Shown here: one piece after another, positions 9,395-49,630 of the stretch
How the letters are laid out: each line of letters opens with the position of its first letter
Position numbering within the stretch: position 1 is the stretch's first letter
NCBI GenBank assembly: GCA_947039515.1
Contig: CAMQYY010000005.1
Span: forward strand, 1 to 55,181
Direction: 5' to 3'
Length of the DNA: 55,181 nt
DNA from: an uncultured Ureaplasma sp.
GTDB taxonomy: Bacteria > Bacillota_I > Bacilli_A > Mycoplasmatales > Mycoplasmoidaceae
Program-made: the position numbers and the translations under genes
Notes under the pieces: model-generated
Told to the model about the DNA's origin: nothing
Databases searched by the model: none
The model's input: the letters and a program-made list of their open reading frames with translations, nothing else

Positions 9395-11154
<1,760 letters not shown>

Positions 11155-11156
<2 letters not shown>

Positions 11157-12111
11157 ATGCATTTTTGTATATTTTTTCATTATGATATTTTAAATATTCA
11201 TTTAAAAAAACAAATCTTTTTTTAATATTTTGATAGCAAGATTCATATTGTTTGAAGAATATATTGAAATCATCTTCTAATAATTTTTTATCATTAGTTA
11301 TAATATTTCATTTCTCATCAAATGTGAATAAACCTCTATCGAATAGTTTGTGATGATTAGCACATAAAGTTATTCCATTATTAGAATCTATTTGTTCTAT
11401 TTGATTAGAACACTGAGAAAAAGGTTTGATATGACATGCTTGTAATAATTCAGGTCTATCAATACAACATATAATACATTTACCATCTCTATCTTTGATA
11501 CTAGCAGCAAAAATATGTTGTATATAGCCTCTACCTCTTGAAGTAGTTAAGTGTTCTCTATATATTTTTTCTTCAATACATTCTTTAAATTGATCGAAGT
11601 TATTATTTGCTAATCAATCATATTCATTTTTGTTACTATCTCTTAATGAATCAATACAAACATTAATCAATTCTGTTTTATATTTTTCAATTTCATTTGA
11701 ATCTATAATTAAATTTATTCTTATTATTTTAGTTTCATTATCAAACTGAAAAATAGAATTATTGGTCATTAATTTAGAAGCTGGCATTGAACAAATACTT
11801 CTTAATACTTGTTTTTGAACTATTTTATTTGTGATTCCAGTGTCTCAAACTTTTTTTGATTTTTGATTTTTTGTAATGTAATTTCAAAATTCAAAGTTGT
11901 ATGTAATATAGTTGTAATAATTTTTAACAATTTCAAAATTATTCAAATCAATATCTTCATTGAATAATTTATCACTTTTAATACTACTAATTATAGAAAG
12001 AAGCAATGCTGGTTTATATGGATATTTTAATCTCTTATATTCTTCACTTTTTATTGAAGCTTTTTTATCAATATTTTTTAAAAATTTTTCTCATTCGATT
12101 CTATTAGTCAT
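11155..12111 (-). CDS. HNH endonuclease (HNH_2-like)
   Basis: 318 residues with TGA as Trp. The C-terminal half carries an HNH domain: 'CIIC' zinc ligands, 'LLQACHIKPFSQ', 'NGITLCANHHKLFD'. This layout is typical of HNH_2 restriction-type nucleases, with catalytic His in 'ACHIKP' and the second His pair in 'NHHKLFD'. The N-terminal ~170 residues are not recognised and may bind DNA. It lies downstream of the poly-C small ORF on the same strand, 45 bp away, and is divergent from the GHKL-Z1 operon. It has its own -10 box (TATAAT, 12125 to 12120) just behind a palindrome. It is most likely a restriction nuclease of the island; specificity is unknown. Confidence 0.85.
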
Positions 12112-12119
12112 ATTAATTA

Positions 12120-12138
12120 ATTATACAACTATAGTTGT
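12120..12138 (-). promoter_or_regulatory. palindromic operator and -10 box of the HNH gene
   Basis: A 14-bp perfect palindrome, ACAACTATAGTTGT (12125-12138), directly abuts a minus-strand TATAAT (12125 to 12120), 9 bp upstream of the HNH start codon. A related 14-mer has the same placement at 12538-12551. The spacing suggests a regulator that blocks or aids RNA polymerase and a nearly leaderless transcript. Confidence 0.5.
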
Positions 12139-12156: not shown

Positions 12157-12500
12157 CTAGCTTTTTTCTCAGTTTAAAAAGTATTTTTTTATTAAATTAT
12201 TAATTTCTTTTTCTTTATTTTTTCAATTATCAAAATTATAGATAGCATGACTAATACCACCAAATAATATATTCACTGTTGGGATACTATATTTTTTTTC
12301 ATTGTTTTTATCATAATAACCGTTGATTATTTTTTGATAAAATTGCACATTATTTCAACCCATTTGAAAAATAAATTCTTCTATGGTTAAATCTAGTAAA
12401 TTTTTTCTTAATTCAGTAATAAATAATTTGATATCAGGAAGATGTTGCTTATAACCCCCCCCCCCCGTTGGTTTTTGATTTGTTTTTCATTTTTTTCCAT
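12157..12500 (-). CDS. small phase-variable ORF, possibly a DNA-binding regulator; currently out of frame
   Basis: From ATG 12498-12500 the reading frame runs into a 12-base G tract (C on the plus strand, 12455-12466) and, with 12 bases, stops after 31 residues. The downstream frame is open from the tract to a TAG at 12157-12159 and encodes about 100 residues starting 'GYKQHLPDIKLFITELRK', with Trp coded by TGA three times. Tract lengths of 10 or 13 join the halves from this ATG. Lengths of 11 or 14 join them from a second ATG at 12488-12490, which has a GGAAA-like site. The segment around 'WNNVQFYQKIINGYY' vaguely resembles a helix-turn-helix, but I do not recognise the family. It sits upstream of the HNH gene and divergent from the GHKL operon, as a controller gene would. 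Confidence 0.6.
12455..12466. repeat. 12-base poly-C homopolymer (slippage tract)
   Basis: Twelve consecutive C on the plus strand inside the small ORF. Long G/C runs are conspicuous in such an AT-rich sequence and are the classic substrate for slipped-strand phase variation. The exact length could also be an assembly or base-calling error. Confidence 0.9.
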
Positions 12501-12529
12501 TATTTTATTCTTAGTTTCTTTTGATCATA

Positions 12530-12580
12530 ATTATAGAACAACTATTGTTGGTTTTTATATTTGAGTGTGTTCTATATAAT
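12530..12580. promoter_or_regulatory. divergent control region: second operator copy and two -10 boxes
   Basis: ACAACTATTGTTGG (12538-12551) matches the palindrome at 12125-12138 in 12 of 14 positions. A minus-strand TATAAT (12535 to 12530) lies just beyond it for the small ORF, repeating the operator/-10 geometry of the HNH gene. A plus-strand TATAAT (12575-12580) 32 bp before the GHKL start is the likely -10 of the operon. The operator lies upstream of that box, about where a -35 element or upstream regulator would sit. Confidence 0.5.
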
Positions 12581-12611: not shown

Positions 12612-14408
12612 ATGGATAATACAAAAAAACTAGTAGCAACTTATGAATTAATAAGAGGTTATAAAAATGAAAGAACTAATTATTGATTAGCTTTATCAGA
12701 ATTTATTGATAACTCTATTTCTTCATATAAGAATAAAAATCCTAATAATCCTATTGATGGTTTGAAGATTAATATAGATATTGATTATAGCGATAATGAA
12801 AATAAGAAAATAACTATTACTGATAATGCAAATGGTATGGATATGCTTGAATTATTAGATGCTATGCAACCTAATAGTAGAGAAGGAAAAACAGATAACG
12901 ATTATAACCAATATGGAATAGGAATGAAGTTAGGTATCTTTTGATTCGGAGAAGATGGTTTAGTTTATAGTAAAAAGAAAAATGAAAAAACATATTGCAT
13001 TGATTTTGAAACTAAAACAAAAAATAAGTCAAAAGCAATAGAATTAGAAGCAATAGAGATAGATGAAAATATTTTTTCAAATTCTGAATCAGGAACAAAA
13101 ATTATTATTTCTAATGTTTATCCTAATAGAAAAATAAATAAAAAAGATCTCGAAAGAATAGAAGATGCTCTAGGTTGAAGGTATTCAAAATTAATTCAAA
13201 GAGGATTGAAAATTTCTCTTTCTTCTACTAAATGTGATGAAAAACGTTCATCAAATATAGCTTCTTTTTATATTGAAGAATATAAAAACATTCCATTCAA
13301 TTTTAATCAATTTATAAATTATAAAAAAGGCAAAAGTAGAGAGATTCCTTATGATAGAATTAGTGAAGTAAAATCAAAAATTAGAAAAGAATTAGTAATC
13401 TTAGAAGAAATTACTAATTCTATTGATCGTATTATCAAAAAAGAAAAATTAGATACTTATCTTAAAAATATGGATGAAACATCAATTTATCTTGAAGATA
13501 TGGATAAATTCTTAGATTTAAGAATAGAATCATATGAAAAATTTCTAGATGGAAAAGATTTATTTTTTGAAAGAGAAATAAGTATCAATAAATCGGAAAC
13601 TAAAATTCAATTTGGTATATTAGGTGGGGATTTCCAAAATAATAAAGAGTCAGGATTTTCTAAAGATAGATATACAGGGTTAACTACATATCATATTGAT
13701 AGAGCAATAAATCATGGTCCGAATGAAGTTGATCAATGTAGTAATCTTCTGTTTGCAAAATCAATAAAAGGTAACACTACTAATAGTAGATGAATGTATG
13801 GTGAAATAAACTTAACTGGTATTGAAAATCCAGATAAAAATAAATCTAAATTTGACTGATCATATGATGAAGCAAAAGATAAAAGATCTGATCTAGTTCT
13901 TCAAGAAGAAACAACACATTTATATAAATCTTTATTGGGAATAATAACTCATATTGTAGAGATAACTAAATATCAAAAAAATGAAAAAATTACTACTGAA
14001 GCATTAAAAACTGTCAAAAATGATGTATCTAATCACTTACCTAGTATTGATTTTTCAATTAATAGAGATGTAGAAGGTGATGATTTTCTTAATTTTTATT
14101 TCCCTATTTTTGAAAATGAATATGAAGCAAGAATATATGAAAATAATAGGTTAGGAAAAGATTTAATAAAAATTGAAAAAAATGAAGATGAAAAAATAAT
14201 AAAAGTTCATTTTAATAATGATCATGCTTTTTGAAAACCATTATTAAAAAATGAAGATACTGAAATAAGAGGAAAAATGATTTATCCAATTATTATCACC
14301 ATGATAATATCGAACGAAGTTAGTTTGTTAAATGATTTAATTAGAAAAGATTTTTTAACCACATTTAATGATGTTGTATCTACCTTTAAAAAAGATATTA
14401 GAGGTTAA
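12612..14408 (+). CDS. GHKL (MORC-like) ATPase of a restriction-like operon
   Basis: 598 residues. An N-terminal GHKL/HATPase_c_3-type ATP-binding fold is visible: N box 'SEFIDNSISS' (about 29-38, Glu30/Asn34), G1-like 'TDNANGMD' (about 70), and G2 'QYGIGMKLG' (about 100). The G1 motif has Ala where Gly is usual in 'DNGxGM'. Bacterial MORC-like ATPases of this kind are known from restriction-like operons with Z1, DUF4420 and nuclease genes, where they are thought to open or remodel DNA. An AAAGGA site precedes ATG 12612. The stop overlaps the ribosome-binding site of the Z1 gene (AGAGG), so the two are translationally linked. The role is inferred from family and neighbours. Confidence 0.85.
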
Positions 14409-14409
14409 A

Positions 14410-15798
14410 ATGTGAGAACTTGGTAAAAAAATAATTACAAAAGAGATATCTACTAATAAAGACTATAGTTTTAGAGATATTTTAGAGTCGAAAGAATCTG
14501 AAATTGTTCTATGTGTTGGTCAAGTTCAATCTGGAAAAACAAGAAAAATAATAGAAATAATAAAAATAGCTATTGATCTAGAATACAACTATATTATCTT
14601 TTTTGGCGGAAATACTAATTCATTACTTAATCAAACACAAGATAGATTAGAAAGAGAATTGGTGGAGTTCGTCCATTCAGAAAAATTACAAATAAGTGAT
14701 GCAAAAAATTATGAAAAGTCATTTAATAGAAATGTACCATTACTATTTAATATTATCAAAAATGCAAAAGCTATCGATAATCTAAGAGAAAATATTTTTG
14801 AAGATATTGATTTAACAGATAAAAAAATTCTAATAATTGATGATGAATCCGATTTTGGTTCAATAAATATAGGAAAATCAGAAAATAAATCTAGTGTTCT
14901 CTATGGATCTATTGAAAAAATATTCAATAGATTTTATAATCCCAAACTATTAAAAGTCACTGCAACACCATATGGAAATATTTTAAATAGTAATTCTATG
15001 TCTCTAAAGATAAGAAAAATATTTTCATGAAAACCAGGTGATGGTTATACAGGATGAAAATATTTTGATGATAGAAAAAAAGATATATATGTTACTGATT
15101 TAGAAAGTGATATTGATTCTGGTGAAAATTTAGAATATGCAATATTAAGAAATTCTATAATTACACATTTTATTGCTTCTTATAATTTATATTATGAACA
15201 AAAAGATAGTTCTGAATCAAAAAATATTAATTCAGACTTATTAATTAATTGATTTTTAGAAACAAAAAAACATGAAGAAATAGGAAGAGATTGCTTAAAA
15301 ATAATTAAAGCAATGCAACAAATTAAAGATACTTTCTATGATATATATCTAAAAAAATTATCAATTGATAAAGATAAATTTAATGAATTTGTAAAAAAAT
15401 ATACCAATGAAATGGAAGTAATAGTATTAAACTCTGAAAATCAGGAAATAGGTAACAAGACATATAAAATAATTATTGGCGGTCATTTACTTTCAAGGGG
15501 CAATACATTTGAAAATTTGATGGTTGAATTATTTTTAAATTCCCCAAATGAAATTATTAATGTTGACACTTTACTCCAAAGATGTAGATGATTTGGATAT
15601 AGAGAAGAATATCGAGTAAAACACATGAAAATATTAATGGATAAAAAGATATTTAATGCTCTTGAAAATTGTGAAAATTATATAAATCTTTTTCAAGAAG
15701 GACAAATTCAAAATATTTCTTTTGTAGAATCAGAATTAAGAAGAATAGATAAAGAATTAGATTTAGTTAGAGGTACAAATAGTGGAAAATCAAAATAA
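14410..15798 (+). CDS. Z1-domain helicase-like ATPase
   Basis: 462 residues. Walker A 'GQVQSGKT' (37-44), Walker B 'ILIIDDESD', then 'KVTATPYGN' form a helicase-like ATPase core. The diagnostic Z1 block is 'IIIGGHLLSRGNTFENL' followed by 'DTLLQRCRWFGYREEY' around residues 355-400. Z1 proteins (PF10593) are characteristically encoded beside MORC-like ATPases and DUF4420 nucleases; they are thought to move on or unwind DNA. It is short for the family (often 700 or more residues), so an N-terminal region may be missing. It starts 1 bp after the GHKL stop. The next gene begins inside its last codons. Confidence 0.9.
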
Positions 15799-16657
15799 TT
15801 GAATAATAGATATTATAGATAAAGGTGGTAATTATGGATTATTTGTTTCAAATAAAGATGACTATAATATACATTTAGGTGATCTAGAAAAAATAAAATA
15901 TGACTATATTGAATATAAAGGTAAACATGAAATCAGAAATATAAGAACTGATGAAAATATCATTGCTCATTATTTTTCTTTTGATAAAGAAGTATTTAAC
16001 CTAGAATTTTTAAAAAATATTTGCATAGAAATTAATAAAATTTTAGAAAAAGAAAATAAATCAATCCAAGCTTCTTTTGAAAAAATAATTCAATATTTTT
16101 CTAAATTAAAATTTCAAAAAGATATTGGAAAAAAAATAATTGGTGATATAGCTGAGGCTTTATTTATGATTAAAGGTCAAGAAATCTTAAATATTAACTT
16201 CAAAAATGATTTACGTTTACTAGATAATGAACTGTATGATTTTAAGCATAATGATATATTTATAGAAGTTAAATCTGCTACAAAAAAAGGCAATCAATTC
16301 ATTATGAGTCTTAGACAATATGATGAGTCTAAAAATAAAAAATTGGTTATAGTTAAATTTACATGTTTAAAAGAAGGACACACAATTCTAGATTTATATG
16401 AAATGTTAAACCCTCTTCCTTCTTTATTAATGGATAAAAAGAAAAAATGAATGGATATCAATAGTAATTCTAAAAATGATATTTTAAATAGATACTCTGT
16501 TAATATAACAAATGCCAAAATTTATCTATTTGATGATAAAAATTTACCTAAAATAAATATTAGTGAATGAAATGCTATGAAAGATGCTGATTTAATAATT
16601 AATGCTACAGATTCAGAACTTATTCCACTAGAAAATCTTAAAAATTATTTGAACTAG
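15782..16657 (+). CDS. PD-(D/E)XK nuclease-like protein (DUF4420 type)
   Basis: 291 residues from a GTG start at 15782-15784 that overlaps the Z1 gene by 17 bp, with AGAGGT 8 bases upstream. No ATG in this frame would retain the N-terminal 'WIIDIIDKGGNYGLFVS'. The nuclease-like core is 'GDIAEALFMIKG' (about 121-132) and 'YDFKHNDIFIEVKSATK' (about 153-169), giving the E...D...E-V-K pattern of PD-(D/E)XK enzymes. In known MORC/Z1 operons the DUF4420 gene sits at this position and is the presumed DNA-cleaving subunit. A hairpin terminator lies just downstream, so this closes the three-gene operon. Confidence 0.8.
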
Positions 16658-16723: not shown

Positions 16724-18118
16724 ATGTTTGAGAATAGTCAAAATAGTGAGAATAGAAGAATTCATTTTAATGAATTAAACAAAGATATGCCTTTAAAAGA
16801 TAAAATCTTTTGGGCTAAAAAGAAAATAAAAGAATTTTTTATATGAGCTGAAGAAAATAAATATGAAGAAATAACTGTCTCTTTTAGCGGCGGTAAGGAT
16901 TCTACTATTTTATTTCACCTTGTTAATGAAGTTCATAAAGAAATTAAATCAGAAATATACTTAATACCTGCTTATGCAGTTGAAATTACCTTTCCATCAA
17001 CATTAAAATTTATCAAAGATACTTGTGAAAAATACCAAGAAGAAAATGAATATATAAAAGAATTACTAATCAAACCTCCTAAGATGCCTTGAAACCAAAT
17101 TCTTGATGAAAAAGGTTATCCTATATTTTCAAAACAAACATCTGTTTTATTTAATAGAATAAAAAATTCTAAAACTAAAAGTGGTTTAACTAATTGAATT
17201 TTTAATATTGAAAGTACAATCTATTTCAAATTAAATAAAGAAAGGCTATTTTTACTTGATGATGAGATGTTGAAATTTCCTGAAATTCCAGTTGAATATC
17301 AAGATTATTTTCCAAAAAACACTTTATCTGGTTCTTATACTTTTTCAGAGAAATGTTGTACCTATGTGAAAGGTGGCTTAAAAAAAGATAATCGACCTAG
17401 TTTTATCGGAACAATGGCAGATGAATCTGCTATGAGAAAAAAATCATGAGTTGATAATGGATGTAACGTTTTTAACAATAAAAAACCTATGAGTAGACCA
17501 TTATCTATTTGAAATGAAAAAGATGTTTGAAAATATATAAAACAAGAAAAATTAGAAATTAATGAAGCTTATAATTTTGATCATAACTTAGATTGAGATA
17601 AACAAGATTTAAGATTTAAAAGACTTGGTTGCATATCATGTCCTTTTGGTTCAGCTGTAGAAAATAGAAAGATTCAAGTATTAAAAAAAAGTAAAAAAGA
17701 AGTTAGTAGATATGAATTAATGAATCGTTATGAAAAACTTTATGATTATTTACCTAAATTATATAAATTCCATATTATCAATACAGGAATGTATAAAGTA
17801 ATAATCGATATGGGTATTAAAATTGAATGTGATGATAAATATCAAGCTCTATATGATATTAGATGAAATCAAATTTCTGAATGATATAAAGAAGAGAATT
17901 TTAGAACTAATTTATTAAGAGTTATGTGTCAAATTGAAAACCATAATAATTATAAAAAATGAGATAGATATAAAGCTTGAGAATATACTCTTGAAGATTT
18001 TAATAAAGCTTTAAATAATTATAAAATTGTAGATCAAACAAATAAAACAGAAATAAATAAAATTAGAAGCATGATTAAAAAAGAATATGACAAAAATAAT
18101 CCCTATCCATTTGTATAA
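16724..18118 (+). CDS. PP-loop PAPS-reductase-like protein
   Basis: 464 residues. PP-loop 'VSFSGGKDSTIL' (about 51-62) belongs to the N-type ATP pyrophosphatases. Further family blocks are 'GYPIFSKQTS', 'SEKCCTYVKGG', 'IGTMADESAMRKKS', 'GCNVF', 'RPLSIWNEKDVWKYI' and 'GCISCPFG', with Cys pairs that could hold an Fe-S cluster. This pattern matches the phosphoadenosine-phosphosulfate-reductase-like proteins found in Firmicutes phages and islands better than DndC. A mollicute has no sulfate assimilation, so a role in modifying nucleic acid or a nucleotide is more plausible. It has its own upstream gap after a terminator and its own terminator, so it may be a separate unit of the island. Family firm, substrate unknown. 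Confidence 0.82.
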
Positions 18119-18196: not shown

Positions 18197-19243
18197 CTAT
18201 TTAATATTGTTATTCAAATCTTTTTTTGAAGTTTGATTATTTATTTCTAAAAAATTTCATTCTTTTATTTTATTTTTAAAAATTTCATTTAAATTCATTT
18301 CTACTGTTAGGACATGTGTTCAAAATAATATAGGTGAATCAAAAAAACAATTTTTGAATAAAATATTTTCAAGTAAATTACTAGTAGAAAGTAGTTGTTT
18401 TTCATTTTCTTTTGTTGGAAAATGATAGTAATGTATGGGTAAATTAAATATTTCCACTAATAATTCAATGTCTATTACTTCTAATTCTTCTAATAATTCA
18501 TTATTTATTAATTCTAATTCTTCTAATAATTCATTATTTATTAATTCTAATTCTTCTTTTATAATTAATTTATCTTTTGAAAAAGATATTATATATTCTT
18601 TTAATTTTTGATAAGTTATTTCTTTTTTTTTACCAAAAATGTGTTCAATAAGTATTCTATGATTTAAAATAATATATTTTTTGTTTTTATCATTTGAAAA
18701 TTGGGAATTGATAATAATATCTAAAAATGCAGAATGTATATTTAATTTTTTATTATAATCAATATTAATTTTTTCTTCATTTAATAGTTCAATAATAAAT
18801 TCTGAAACAAATATTTTAATTCAAATTTCACTATAAAATATATTTCTTACATTTCAAATATATTCGGTAAATGAAAATTTATTTCCATTCTTATTTCAAC
18901 TTTTTTCTTTATTACAAACAAGCTTTAGAACATTGGATGGAGACTCTCCTAAAATTTTAAATTTACTAATATCTAGTTCACAATATTTAAATAATTCACA
19001 TGTAAATGAAAAAATTTTATATAGAGAATCTAAAAAATCTATATAAAAATCTGATTTTTTTATAATTTCTTCTATTTTTAGATCTATTTCTTTTTTATTT
19101 ATTAATTCCTTTTCTGTATATTCTAAAAATAATTCATTGATATTAAATCTGGTAAAATTATTTTTTTTATTTTTCAAAATTCATTTAAAAAAATTATTGC
19201 AATATGCTTGAATATCCTTATATGATATGTTCTTATATTTCAT
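18197..19243 (-). CDS. unknown protein, family C copy 1
   Basis: 348 residues, unrecognised. It is clearly homologous to the next gene (19479-20471): both start 'MKYKN(I)', share 'DFYIDFL(D/E)SLY', 'KINIDYNKKLNIHSAFLDI' and a C-terminal 'SPxLFWTHVL...EM' block. Strongly basic/hydrophobic, with no signal peptide or membrane segment. It contains a 33-bp tandem repeat giving 'ELELINNELLE' twice, predicted as a charged helix. Low-complexity AT-rich coding and tandem paralogy suggest a lineage-specific accessory gene. It begins at ATG 19241-19243. Confidence 0.75.
18482..18556 (-). repeat. 33-bp tandem repeat inside family C copy 1
   Basis: Two perfect 33-bp units (18482-18514, 18515-18547) and a partial third. 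The unit is in frame, giving 11-residue repeats. It is absent from the paralog at 19479-20471, so copy number probably changes. Confidence 0.9.
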
Positions 19244-19478: not shown

Positions 19479-20471
19479 TTAAATATTATTGATAAAAATT
19501 TTTTTAAAATCTTCTTGCTTTATTTTTAAAAAAATTCATTCTTCTATTTTATTTTTAAAGTTCTTACTTAAACCCATTTCTTTCATTAAAACATGTGTTC
19601 AAAATAATACTGGTGATTCAAAAAAACAATTTTTGAATAAATTATTTTTAAACAAGTACATATTTGAAAATATTTTTATATCTTTTTCAGTTATTGGAAA
19701 ATGATATAAATGTAAGGGCAAATTGAAAATTTTTTTTAATAATTCGATATCTGTTTCTTTTAATTCTGTTAATAATTTATTGTTATCTTGTTTATATTCT
19801 TTTTTACGATTTTCTTCAACTTCTGAAAAAGATATTATAAATTCTTTTAATTTAGCATATTTTTTATCTTTATCAAAGATACTGTCAATAAGTATTCTAT
19901 GATTTAAAATAATATATTTTTTGTATTTATCTCTTGAGAATTGAGAATTGATAGTAATATCTAAAAATGCAGAATGTATATTTAATTTTTTATTATAATC
20001 AATATTAATTTTTTCTTCATTTAATAGTTCAATAACAAATTCTGAAACAAATATTTTAATTCAAATTTTATTATAAATAATATTTCTTATTTTTTTAACA
20101 CCTCAAATAAATGTTGATCAATCTGTATTTTCAGAAACAGCGCTAGATAAATTCTTTTTAACATCAAAAGACTCATATATAATTGTGAATTCATTAATAT
20201 TAATTTTTAAAAAATTAAATAATTCACAACCAAAACAAAAAATATCATATAGAGACTCTAAAAAATCTATATAAAATTCTGATTTTTTTATAATTATTCC
20301 TATTTTTATATCTACTATGTTTTTATTTATTGAATGATTTTCAATATATTCTAAAAATAATTCATTAAAATTAAATTTACTAAAATCGTTTTCTTTATTT
20401 TCCAAAATTCATTTCAAAAAATTATTACAATACGCTTCAATATCTTTATAATTTATGTTTTTATATTTCAT
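19479..20471 (-). CDS. unknown protein, family C copy 2
   Basis: 330 residues, paralog of 18197-19243. The middle third (around 19890-20060) is nearly identical at DNA level to 18640-18810, while the ends have diverged. This mosaic pattern suits gene conversion or an old duplication. It lacks the 11-residue repeats of copy 1. Start ATG 20469-20471 lies in the same 'tttcataa' context as copy 1. No recognisable domain; no function assigned. The 235-bp gap between the copies shows no ORF. Confidence 0.75.
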
Positions 20472-20882: not shown

Positions 20883-21641
20883 TTAATATGATTCTCCATC
20901 AAAAACATCAAAGTCCTTTTGATCTAATCAATGTTCCTCTCAACCTGATTCTTCTTCAAAAATAGTTTTTCATTCTTCAGGAAAGTATTTTTTTTGAAAT
21001 TTTGTTCTAAAAACAAGTTTTATAAAATTTTCAATACAAAATTCCCAAGATGGTATTTTAGCAAGCATTAGTATGTCATTTCATTCATCATATTCTTGAG
21101 ATATTTCGTATCAATATTCATATTTTTCTTGACATAGGTATAGTGAAATTGCTTTCAATCTATCCCCCATTTTATAAACTTCAACAATTGATAAATATGG
21201 AACTTCTTGACTAAAGAAGGTGTTCATTTTATTTAAAATTAATTTTTGTTGATCTTTATTTAGCACATAATTTTCATTATCTTCATCAAGATTTTTATCA
21301 GCTAATGATTCTAATAAATCAGCATCAATTCTGAATATAGTACTAGAATCAATATATAATGCTTTTTCTGATAAATCTATAGATTCTTCTATTAAAATTT
21401 CTCCTTTTTCAAGTTCTTTAAATTCACCATCTGAATAATTATTTCGAGATTTAATATATCAATAAGTATGATTTTTTTCATCATAAAAAATAACAAAAAT
21501 TCTGTCTTGTTTATTAGTAATTGATAATAATTTTTCTCCTTCAAAATCACGATTTGGCATTCCTGTTTCAAAAAATAAAGCAGGATTTAATAGTTCATTT
21601 TTTGATAATATTAGTGATTTAAACAGTTCTAATCTGCTCAT
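20883..21641 (-). CDS. unknown protein, family A copy 1
   Basis: 252 residues, no recognised domain. N-terminal half: 'IFVIFYDEKNHTYWYIKSR' then 'EKGEILIEESIDLSEKALYI' and 'DSSTIFRIDADLLESL', a beta-rich layout vaguely like small SH3-barrel toxins (PemK/ToxN type); this is only a hunch. Trp-rich C-terminus (several TGA codons). It is almost identical to 23202-23972 except for one short patch, and homologous to family B (21709-22377). No signal peptide. Start ATG 21639-21641 has an AGAAA-type site. Confidence 0.78.
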
Positions 21642-21708: not shown

Positions 21709-22377
21709 TTACATTTTTATTTTTGAAATTTGATTCGGAAAATATTCTTCTTGAAAATTGATCTTAAATTCAATTGCTTCTAAATATTTATCACTATCTT
21801 TATTTGACTCAGCATCATATAATCTGTTTTTATATTCTAGAGTTTCTTTTTTAGATTCTTTTTCTAGAACTTTATATTTTTCAGAACATAAATACAATGA
21901 AGAACCTTTTATTTCATCTTTTTCTTTATAAACTTCAACAATAGATAAATATGGAGGTTCTTGATTAAGACAATTATTAATTTCATTTAAAATAAGTTCT
22001 TGTTCATTTTTCTCTAAAATACAAGTTTTATTGTGTGTTTCATGATTTTTATCAACTAATGATTCTAATAAATAAGCATCTATTTTAAATATTTGACTAC
22101 AGTCAATATATGAATTTTTTTCAAATAAACCTATATTGTTTTTCCCTATTAAAATTTCGCCTTTTTTTTGTTTATTATCACTACCATTTTTATTAGCAAC
22201 ACCTCGAGATTTAACATATCAATAATTATCATTTTTTTTATCATAAAAAATGATAAAAGGTCTGACTCCTTTTGGATTTCTATTGCGTTCTAGGCGAAAG
22301 CCTAATTCATCAAATATAATAGGATTAGATTTATTATTTAATTTCATAAATGGTTTGAATAATTCTAATTTATTCAT
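21709..22377 (-). CDS. unknown protein, family B (diverged relative of family A)
   Basis: 222 residues. It aligns with family A over its first ~170 residues: 'M.KLELFK', 'FIIFYDKKNDNYWYVKSR', 'KKGEILIG', 'SYIDCSQIFKIDAYLLESLVDKN', 'PPYLSIVEVYK', 'SLYLCSEKYK'. The C-termini differ: this one ends in a Lys/Glu-rich tail and lacks the Trp-rich region. It lies 67 bp upstream of family A copy 1 on the same strand. A fragment of a second family B copy lies at 24022-24130. Function unknown. Confidence 0.75.
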
Positions 22378-23201: not shown

Positions 23202-23972
23202 TTAATATGATTCTCCATCAAAAACATCAAAGTCCTTTTGATCTAATCAATGTTCCTCTCAACCTGATTCTTCTTCAAAAATAGTTTTTCATTCTTCAGG
23301 AAAGTATTTTTTTTGAAATTTTGTTCTAAAAACAAGTTTTATAAAATTTTCAATACAAAATTCCCAAGATGGTATTTTAGCAAGCATTAGTATGTCATTT
23401 CATTCATCATATTCTTGAGATATTTCGTATCAATATTCATATTTTTCTTGACATAGGTATAGTGAAATTGCTTTCAATCTATCCCCCATTTTATAAACTT
23501 CAACAATTGATAAATATGGAACTTCTTGACTAAAGAAGGTGTTCATTTTATTTAAAATTAATTTTTGTTGATCTTTATTTAGCACATAATTTTCATTATC
23601 TTCATCAAGATTTTTATCAGCTAATGATTCTAATAAATCAGCATCAATTCTGAATATAGTACTAGAATCAATATATAATGCTTTTTCTGATAAATCTATA
23701 GATTCTTCTATTAAAATTTCTCCTTTTTCAAGTTCTTTAAATTCACCATCTGAATAATTATTTCGAGATTTAATATATCAATAAGTATGATTTTTTTCAT
23801 CATAAAAAATAATAAAAATTCTGTCTTGTTTATTAGTAATTGATGCATTAAATCTATCTGAACAATGTGATGAACTCTCTCGATATGGGATTCCTGTTTC
23901 AAAGAATAAAGCAGGGTTTAATAGTTCATTTTTTGATAATATTAGTGATTTAAATAGTTCTAATCTACTCAT
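23202..23972 (-). CDS. unknown protein, family A copy 2
   Basis: 256 residues. Nearly every base matches family A copy 1 (20883-21641) outside one block: 23844-23889 here replaces 21525-21558 there (46 versus 34 bp, exactly accounting for the 12-bp length difference). The block changes residues about 28-44 just before 'ITNKQDRIF'. Such identity with one replaced patch points to recent duplication or gene conversion plus local replacement. Function unknown. Confidence 0.78.
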
Positions 23973-47800: not shown

Positions 47801-49630
47801 TTAATTAAACACATCTTTCTTATATTTTTCTAAAATTATATTTTTTCTAGCTAATAAAAAATCATTATAATTATTTTGATTTTTTTCTTTTTCAAAATTT
47901 TCAAAGGCAACTATAAGGTCATTATATTTTATTTCATCATTTATTTTAGCCCAAAGAGTAAGAGGTTCATTTTCAATAAATACTTTATCTAATTTATCTC
48001 TTTTATCATTATTTTTAACAGTTTTTAAAAGAGAAAAATTAGCAAAATTAGAAATATTTTTAATATTATTTTTTTCTAAAAGAGACCTTGGAATTAAATG
48101 ATCATTTTCAAAATTATTATTACTATTTTCAGAAACACTAATATTATCTCCATAAAGCATACTCATCAAAACACTTGATTTATCATTAAAATTTTTATGA
48201 TCATCTTTGCTTTCAAAATAAATATTTATTTTATTTTGAAATAAATCTAATTTAATTCTTTCATAATACTTATCTTCTGCCATTGCTTGATAAGCTTTTT
48301 TAGATGATGAACTTGAAAAAGTACCACTAAGCAAATCATAAATATAATATTGTTTTAGTGAATTAGCATTTTCTTTAATAAATTTTTTTCTATTAAAAGA
48401 ATCTTTTTCTTGAATTATTTTTTTAAATATTGAACCTAAGTAAGCAACAATATATGAACCCTTAGGCATTAAACGATATTCATCTTTTTTTGCATTTCCC
48501 TTGAAATCTTTGAAGAATCTAAAAATCTCATTATATATTTTTATAGATTCTTTCATATAGGAAATTATTCTATCTATATGTTCCATATCTGTTATATATT
48601 CACTTATTTTCTCACCTATTTCTTTATCTAAAAAAGATTTTTTTTCAATATTATTTTCAGTTTCTTCTAGATAAATTTTAATAATGTAAATTAAAGATGA
48701 AATATCAATTTGTTGATCTGATTTTTTTGAATTACCATCTATTCCTGTAAATTCTTTTGCTATATATGAATCTCAATTATCACCAATAGATTCTTGAAAA
48801 ATGTATCAAATAACATCATATGGAGTTAAATCATTATTTTCTTCATGATAAATATTAAGACAATCAAATGCAGGTACTAATGATTCTTTCATTTTTTCAA
48901 TTATTCTATCAGAATCTTCTATTTCCATTTTTTTCGATGATCACATAGATTTTCAAATGTCAGTATTAGTTAATTTTTTACCTTTTGTGTTTATTAATTC
49001 AAATAATTCTGAAGCTTCTTTTGTAGTACCTGTAAAAATAATTGTTTGAATTTGGTGATTCTCAATACCTAAATTTTCAACAGCAATTTCATAAATTCGT
49101 GAAGATATTGCCCCAACATCTCTATTATCTAATTGTCTCTTTTCAATTTCATCCCTGTTTTTATTTTTCAATTTATCAGCAAAATTAGTTGATTTAGAAA
49201 AATTTATATGACCTATTTCTTTTATTCAATCTGACTTTTTCAAAACATTCTTAAAAAAATCTATATATTTTTCATCTTGAAAATCTTCTGATATTTGAGG
49301 ATTATTTTCTTTATGTTTTTTAATACTAGTTTGAATAAAATTTAATAAATCTTCTTCTCTCATATTTTTAAAGATATTTTGATATATTTCAACTATTGTT
49401 GATGTTCTTTGTAACCCATCTAAAATATATTTCTGTCCATCCATTTCATGTAAAAATATAACTCCAAAAGGGAATCCATTTTTTATTGATTTTTGTAAAG
49501 CTTCTTTATCTTCTTTTTTTCAAACTAAAGTTCTTTGTATTTTTGGAACTCTTAATATTCCATTTTTATAGTCTGTAATTATTTTTTGAATTGTGGTTTC
49601 TTCATACTTGTATTTTATATTTTTATTCAT
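47801..49630 (-). CDS. GmrSD-like type IV restriction protein (DUF262 + HNH/DUF1524)
   Basis: 609 residues. N-terminal DUF262 (ParB-like nucleotide-hydrolysing domain): 'GILRVPKIQRTLVWKKEDK', 'YILDGLQRTSTIVEIY' (the usual DGQQR reads DGLQR), 'FELINTKGKKLTNTDI'. C-terminal HNH of the DUF1524 kind: 'FENDHLIPRSLL' followed by an Asn/Leu-rich 'ISNFANFSLLKTVKNNDKRDK'. Fused proteins of this class cut DNA carrying modified bases and protect against phage. It is alone on its strand between a Cys-rich gene and an MFS transporter. Start ATG 49628-49630. Confidence 0.85.

Follow-up and report, generated by a model that had tools for sequence, protein, structure and literature searches.

A likely phase-variable, putative XRE-like controller of a restriction-type regulon in an uncultured Ureaplasma and its relatives

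Described systems closest to the island

Controller (C) proteins are known from restriction-modification systems such as PvuII, BamHI and Csp231I, and in Mycoplasma gallisepticum a C-family protein encoded at the hsd locus seems to act as a repressor of that operon (PMC12707154). Phase-variable restriction or defence genes include modA/modD, hsdS and PglX of BREX/Pgl (PMC5953494, on neisserial phase-variable restriction genes; PMC9122589, on phase variation of PglX/BREX and the regulator BrxR). Phosphorothioation systems include DndABCDE, SspABCD and IscS-DndBCDE-DndI; a PAPS-reductase-like DndC that has an HNH partner is described in PMC11662687.

The window analysed here is a stretch of 55,181 nucleotides from the draft genome (86 % completeness) of an uncultured Ureaplasma species, designated G000. 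The organism uses genetic code 4 (TGA = Trp); for example, aspS (9395-11137) is open only under this code. In the island (Table 1), the HNH gene lies downstream of a small gene, REG, on the minus strand, and the GHKL-Z1-DUF4420 and PAPS-like genes are divergent from REG. The domains suggest that these genes defend against foreign DNA, which remains an inference.

Table 1. Positions of the island genes, the REG reading frame and the putative regulatory elements in the window
Feature	Position	Strand	Remarks
HNH endonuclease (PF13391)	11155..12111	-	weak similarity to phosphorothioate-DNA restriction enzyme NF045808, below cut-off
Operator-like palindrome ACAACTATAGTTGT, HNH promoter	12125..12138	.	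abuts TATAAT (12120-12125); 13 nt from ATG
REG body frame	12157..12504	-	stop to stop, 115 aa (code 4); XRE-like HTH in first half
G12 homopolymer (coding strand), putative slippage switch	12455..12466	-	5′ end of the small putative controller gene REG
REG candidate start 2, ATG (ATG 12490)	12488..12490	-	at tract length 12 in third frame
REG candidate start 1, ATG (ATG 12500)	12498..12500	-	at tract length 12 out of body frame
Operator-like palindrome ACAACTATTGTTGG	12538..12551	.	between divergent REG and GHKL; on REG side 2 nt from TATAAT (12530-12535)
GHKL ATPase (HATPase_c_3)	12612..14408	+	MzaB/MORC-like architecture
Z1-domain helicase-like protein (PF10593)	14410..15798	+	MzaC-like
DUF4420 PD-(D/E)XK protein (PF14390)	15782..16657	+	MzaD-like
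PAPS-reductase-like PP-loop protein	16724..18118	+	invariant SFSGGxDS and CC-X90-CxxC

The GHKL ATPase, Z1 and DUF4420 genes follow the same order as in MZA/MORC-type operons (MzaB, MzaC and MzaD, respectively). The test against the MzaA-E equivalog scores was not met, with 15.8 of 850 bits for MzaB, 61.7 of 1500 for MzaC and 16.3 of 420 for MzaD. Moreover, unlike in MZA operons, MzaA and MzaE were not found next door, and a PAPS-like gene and an HNH gene accompany the three genes.

The PAPS-like protein passed as a PAPS/APS-reductase-like PP-loop protein, judged by its PP-loop (SFSGGxDS, against the SGGKDS of the class) and its fold (PF01507, E 1.4e-14; AlphaFold model with pLDDT 89.8; Foldseek match to CysH/PAPS reductase, E 5e-5). 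In APS reductases, the iron-sulfur motif has the form CC-X~80-CxxC. As in phosphorothioation defence and in the BrxP of type 4 BREX, a protein with a PAPS-reductase-like PP-loop and a cysteine motif is encoded beside an HNH nuclease, and its best PADLOC match was BrxP. However, the island has no DndD, DndE, DndB, SspB, SspC or other BREX gene, and there was no DndC equivalog match. Assignment of the PAPS-like gene to Dnd, Ssp or BREX was rejected, as the Dnd/Ssp test was not met and the partners are absent from the island.

Two paralogous proteins of about 340 aa without a Pfam family adjoin the island (18197-19243 and 19479-20471, minus strand), and a homolog with 60 % identity lies beside PAPS fragments in G003 (L109 1785-2828). 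They are followed by tandem paralogs of 222-256 aa and unknown function, two of them almost identical (20883-21641, 21709-22377 and 23202-23972, minus strand). A 609-aa protein at 47801-49630 (minus strand), by eye of a GmrSD/DUF262 restriction-like type with an HNH-like end, is a second candidate defence gene. In G005 and G002 the HNH genes are split into two or more frames (L041 1160-2133; L110 134-1097); this gene appears to be decaying in some species.

A simple repeat at the 5′ end of REG

The original prediction, made from the sequence alone, placed a 12-base C/G tract between the HNH and GHKL genes inside a regulator-like gene. The position and the length of the tract both held. The plus strand reads C12 and the coding strand of REG G12. 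Not even C8 was matched in 100 dinucleotide shuffles of the window, and the tract is the sole C/G run of at least 9, and also of at least 8, in the 686,630-base (687-kb) mollicute genome. The REG body frame is open across the tract, yet it has no ATG, GTG or TTG 5′ of it, and at length 12 the body downstream is joined to no start. The two candidate ATGs then yield products of only 30 aa (ATG 12500) and 13 aa (ATG 12490). The predicted frame arithmetic, in which 10 or 13 bases join one start to the body and 11 or 14 the other, also held, and the locus meets the test for phase variation mediated by a simple repeat whose length change alters the frame of REG. The further claim that the gene is currently off held for the reading frame in the G000 assembly only.

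Homologs of REG (~110 aa) were found in 14 other species of the same family, namely all five others of the genus and members of two further genera. The comparison is limited to species representatives, many of them drafts, and involves no reads, expression or binding data. The protein family is coherent, with 58 % mean column identity; two further matches, in G012 (E 9e-4) and G038 (E 0.01), were excluded as they had neither the motif nor the neighbours. A simple repeat is located just 5′ of the conserved body in 13 of the 15 copies. It is G12 in two of them (the window's species and G003), C8-C10 in nine (C8 in G058 and G100; C9 in G002, G004, G016 and G031; C10 in G001, G005 and G043) and (GA)14 in two (G049 and G023). 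The repeat is absent from G037 and G099, and both of these copies are in frame. Four of the 13 repeat-bearing copies, near one third, are in frame with an upstream ATG (G001, G005, G016 and G031). G000, G002, G003, G004, G043, G049, G058 and G100 are out of frame, as is G023 barring a possible TTG start. Close relatives can be in opposite states, with C9 in frame in G031 and C8 out of frame in both G058 and G100.

Runs of at least eight C or G occur at one to few sites per genome, and in G000, G001 and G002 the single site is the one at REG. Similarly, the sole array of (GA)8 or longer in each of the ~1-Mb genomes of G049 and G023 is at REG. Because other genomes, including G000, have GA arrays elsewhere, repeat-based switching seems to be a general habit of the group. 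The long (GA)n arrays of G000 (C1:2-53, C1:227419-227454 and C2:101184-101221, one of them at a contig end) are further candidate phase-variable loci.

Between the species compared, tract length and unit vary rather than being uniform. The retention of the repeat at REG (13 of 15 copies), the differing lengths among relatives and the presence of both frame states (four copies in frame) satisfy this part of the test for a phase-variable locus.

The body itself is under purifying selection. Its dN/dS between G000 and G003, both out of frame, is 0.089, lower than for HNH (0.27) and aspS (0.24) in the same pair, and other species pairs gave 0.12-0.19. Because this selection is seen between out-of-frame species, the body must have been translated for much of its history. 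This is what a reversible switch predicts, unlike the expectation for a pseudogene, and the part of the phase-variable locus test that asks for a product under selection despite OFF alleles was met by these two OFF species. Taken together, the varied repeat at one place in 13 of 15 homologs, the selection on the body, and the ON and OFF alleles in relatives support the claim of phase variation.

Two alternatives bear on these data. The first takes REG for a gene in decay and its homopolymer for a chance frameshift or an error of assembly. In its favour, the frame is broken in the assembly, and the G000 draft is incomplete. However, the body is under purifying selection, three kinds of repeat occupy one site in 13 species with four copies in frame, and a related species has an independently assembled G12. 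We consider this alternative all but excluded; a pseudogene or assembly error is ruled out by dN/dS and the homologs. The second is that the repeat works in the 5′ leader, through promoter spacing or translation initiation and not through the frame, with a downstream start yielding a shorter REG whatever the tract length. Mollicutes are known to vary phase through promoter spacing, and in G017 and G030 a (TA)n repeat lies upstream of the PAPS-like gene, not within it. Against it, intact REG copies join an N-terminal segment 5′ of the tract to the body, the repeat-free copies keep that segment in frame, and most copies have no alternative start between the tract and the HTH. The leader explanation is very unlikely, and we retain switching of the REG frame.

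The REG protein and the operator-like palindrome

The AlphaFold model of the 99-residue REG body (pLDDT 87, pTM 0.77) has helices at residues 9-21, 25-32 and 37-44, a short hairpin, and then helices at 61-74, 76-80 and 82-94. Using hhalign against ten XRE proteins of the same bacterial family, helices 1-3 aligned with the XRE HTH (P~6e-4, score 25-27). None of 200 column shuffles reached this score (best 19.6), and the controls, a reversed profile and a MerR alignment, failed to match in this way. The XRE fold is supported by these comparisons but not by any significant Pfam or Foldseek match. Pfam returned only HTH_19 at E 0.12 for one member, Foldseek of the model found nothing in PDB or BFVD, and library scans gave mere hints of HTH families. 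We lean, with moderate confidence, towards REG being a divergent XRE-like protein; that it binds DNA is inferred. A MerR/excisionase-like fold, suggested by weak Foldseek and PHROG matches, was ruled out by hhalign, and neither Foldseek nor a search of PDB sequences matched a DndE-like or other known fold.

The palindrome (A)CCAWCTATAGTTGG(T) is found at promoters within the island and at those of HNH nuclease genes, three of which are unlinked to the island. The exact form CAACYATRGTTG occurs once in G000, at the HNH promoter. The six genomes of the genus (4.7 Mb) contain 11 such sites, 10 of which are at promoters of an island, HNH or helicase-nuclease gene. They are found upstream of HNH in G000, G003, G004 and G005 and of the broken HNH gene in G002, upstream of GHKL in G004, and upstream of PAPS/REG in G001, G002 and G004. 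The last of the ten precedes a gene homologous to the helicase-nuclease that G023 has next to REG. The other large genus has the near-identical ATCTATAGTTGG upstream of PAPS or GHKL in G037, G043, G031, G100 and G054, and also upstream of HNH genes unlinked to the island in G037 (same contig, at a distance of 364 kb) and in G043 and G099 (on other contigs). Most other exact 12-mer matches fall within the coding sequence of housekeeping genes and were attributed to chance.

Seven operator-bearing HNH promoters have a clear ATG; in each of them the site stops 11-14 nt short of it and adjoins a TATAAT-like sequence. This position would suit repression, an inference made without binding data. The operator was not found at the HNH genes of G031, G054, G100 and G049, and there was no clear operator at the island in G049 or G023. 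HNH genes in REG-less genomes have no operator site (at least four mismatches), and the 12 REG-less PAPS-bearing genomes contain three exact operator 12-mers in all, about chance level.

This distribution is most simply explained by a regulator that acts in trans and is present or absent together with REG. Searches for XRE- or MerR-family proteins in G000 found none. We infer, without binding or expression data, that the regulator is REG itself. The label 'regulator-like' in the original prediction is supported by the XRE-like HTH match and by the restriction of the palindrome to promoters of the system.

With a palindrome at its own and the effector promoters, REG fulfils the promoter criterion for a C-protein-like regulator, binding itself being inferred. 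Like C proteins it would be a small HTH regulator encoded with restriction-type genes, and its own and the effector promoters have palindromes in common. Unlike them, it has ~110 aa and a C-terminal half made of helices, its conserved repeat probably makes it phase variable, and its putative operator also marks unlinked nuclease genes. Its system also lacks a DNA methyltransferase: none was seen among the Pfam-scanned island proteins, so the test for a C protein, encoded with a DNA methyltransferase and an endonuclease, was not met. Regulators of the BrxR/CapW type (PMC9122589) are comparable in that a dedicated DNA-binding protein regulates a defence operon through an operator that covers the promoter, as is inferred for REG. 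However, these are WYL-domain proteins that are not phase variable by a repeat, and REG is much smaller.

A switch that probably moved, and the proposed regulon

Wherever the contig extends far enough, in 14 REG loci counting that of the window, the PAPS-like gene adjoins REG. The GHKL-Z1-DUF4420 cassette often accompanies the pair, and the partner genes vary between this cassette, GmrSD and a helicase-nuclease; the constant theme is PAPS, a nuclease module and a switch. At L051, L100 and L102, GmrSD-type (DUF262) genes directly adjoin the PAPS-like gene and the cassette is missing, and we read these genes as interchangeable effector modules. In G001 an open frame of at least 2259 aa without a Pfam family lies directly 3′ of REG (L049 1-6777, minus strand).

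A repeat within the PAPS-like reading frame was present in nine of 12 REG-less genomes and in none of the 15 with REG (Fisher p 5e-5; species are not independent). The units are (GA)10 in G044 and G048, (GA)8 in G114, (GA)9 at the 3′ end in G103, G8 in G132 and G022, G9 in G057, and (TA)9 in frame in G133; G032 has (TA)11 at that position, out of frame. One contig of G036 terminates in 46 consecutive G (L103 7759-7804) at the site of the G8 of G022 and the G9 of G057, which is likely an assembly artefact at a true tract. In the PAPS tree, REG-bearing rows group together weakly (59/54), and REG-less rows fall outside in two well-supported groups. Likely, the switch was first in the PAPS-like gene and later in a newly gained REG, and the best reading is that it moved into the controller of the REG-controlled regulon from the effector side. 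The original prediction that a controller rather than an effector is affected held in part: it is true in three genera, and sister genera have the repeat in the PAPS-like, effector-side gene.

These data also allow a different role for REG, as a phase-variable subunit of the PAPS-like enzyme (e.g. a DNA-binding or specificity partner) and not a transcription regulator, so that its switching would directly toggle modification or restriction activity. REG is found only beside the PAPS-like gene, that gene carries the repeat where REG is absent, as if the switch points were interchangeable, and several g10 loci have REG directly after PAPS in one operon. However, the promoter palindrome, which also occurs at unlinked HNH genes of REG-bearing genomes and is absent from REG-less ones, needs a trans-acting DNA-binding protein, and G000 offers no XRE- or MerR-family match. 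The subunit explanation is unlikely.

Our preferred reading is that REG is XRE-like and phase variable and controls a defence regulon of restriction type, to which we give a probability of about 0.68. The tract, the frames, the conservation of the repeat, the selection on the body, the HTH similarity and the operator distribution are shown; operator binding, its sign, the defence role and switching in populations are inferred. Slippage in the repeat would switch expression of REG. When in frame, REG probably binds (A)CCAWCTATAGTTGG(T) at its own, HNH, GHKL-Z1-DUF4420 operon and PAPS-like promoters and would thereby set the restriction-type regulon as a whole, with the HNH genes at other chromosomal sites among its members. 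Repression is the most likely sign at the HNH and REG promoters, because at every HNH promoter that bears it, and at the REG promoter in G000, the operator is directly next to the -10. At the GHKL and PAPS promoters the operator is further upstream and could activate. As G12 puts REG out of frame in G000, we predict derepression of its HNH gene. It is less clear if this state leaves the defence genes off or derepressed, and the overlap of the operator with the HNH -10 points only tentatively to the latter.

As with modA/modD, hsdS and PglX, simple coding repeats would give reversible ON/OFF states of a defence-type system, the switching of REG being inferred. There the modification, specificity or methyltransferase gene varies; here it is the controller and, in sister genera, the PAPS-like gene. 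A phase-variable controller of a restriction-type regulon was not found in the open-access literature searched (subscription papers were not covered). A bolder reading, which we regard as no more probable than its opposite, is that the whole defence regulon with its unlinked nucleases is phase variable through one small dedicated controller. The switch would have moved from a sulfur-transferase-like gene in sister genera to the controller, with the repeat unit replaced several times (G, C and GA, and TA also in the PAPS-like gene), showing selection for switching itself.

In restriction systems, phase variation is known to affect modification or specificity genes, and there the cell's own DNA can be exposed in the OFF state. 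If a dedicated controller is switched instead, nuclease and partner genes would be toggled as one set, to which nucleases at distant sites of the genome also belong. The replacement of repeat units at one site and the inferred transfer of the repeat from one gene to another offer a natural comparative test of whether switching, and not one repeat or protein, is selected. The locus also draws attention to a system of PAPS-like, GHKL, Z1 and HNH genes that has not been studied and that occurs in minimal genomes with very few regulators left.
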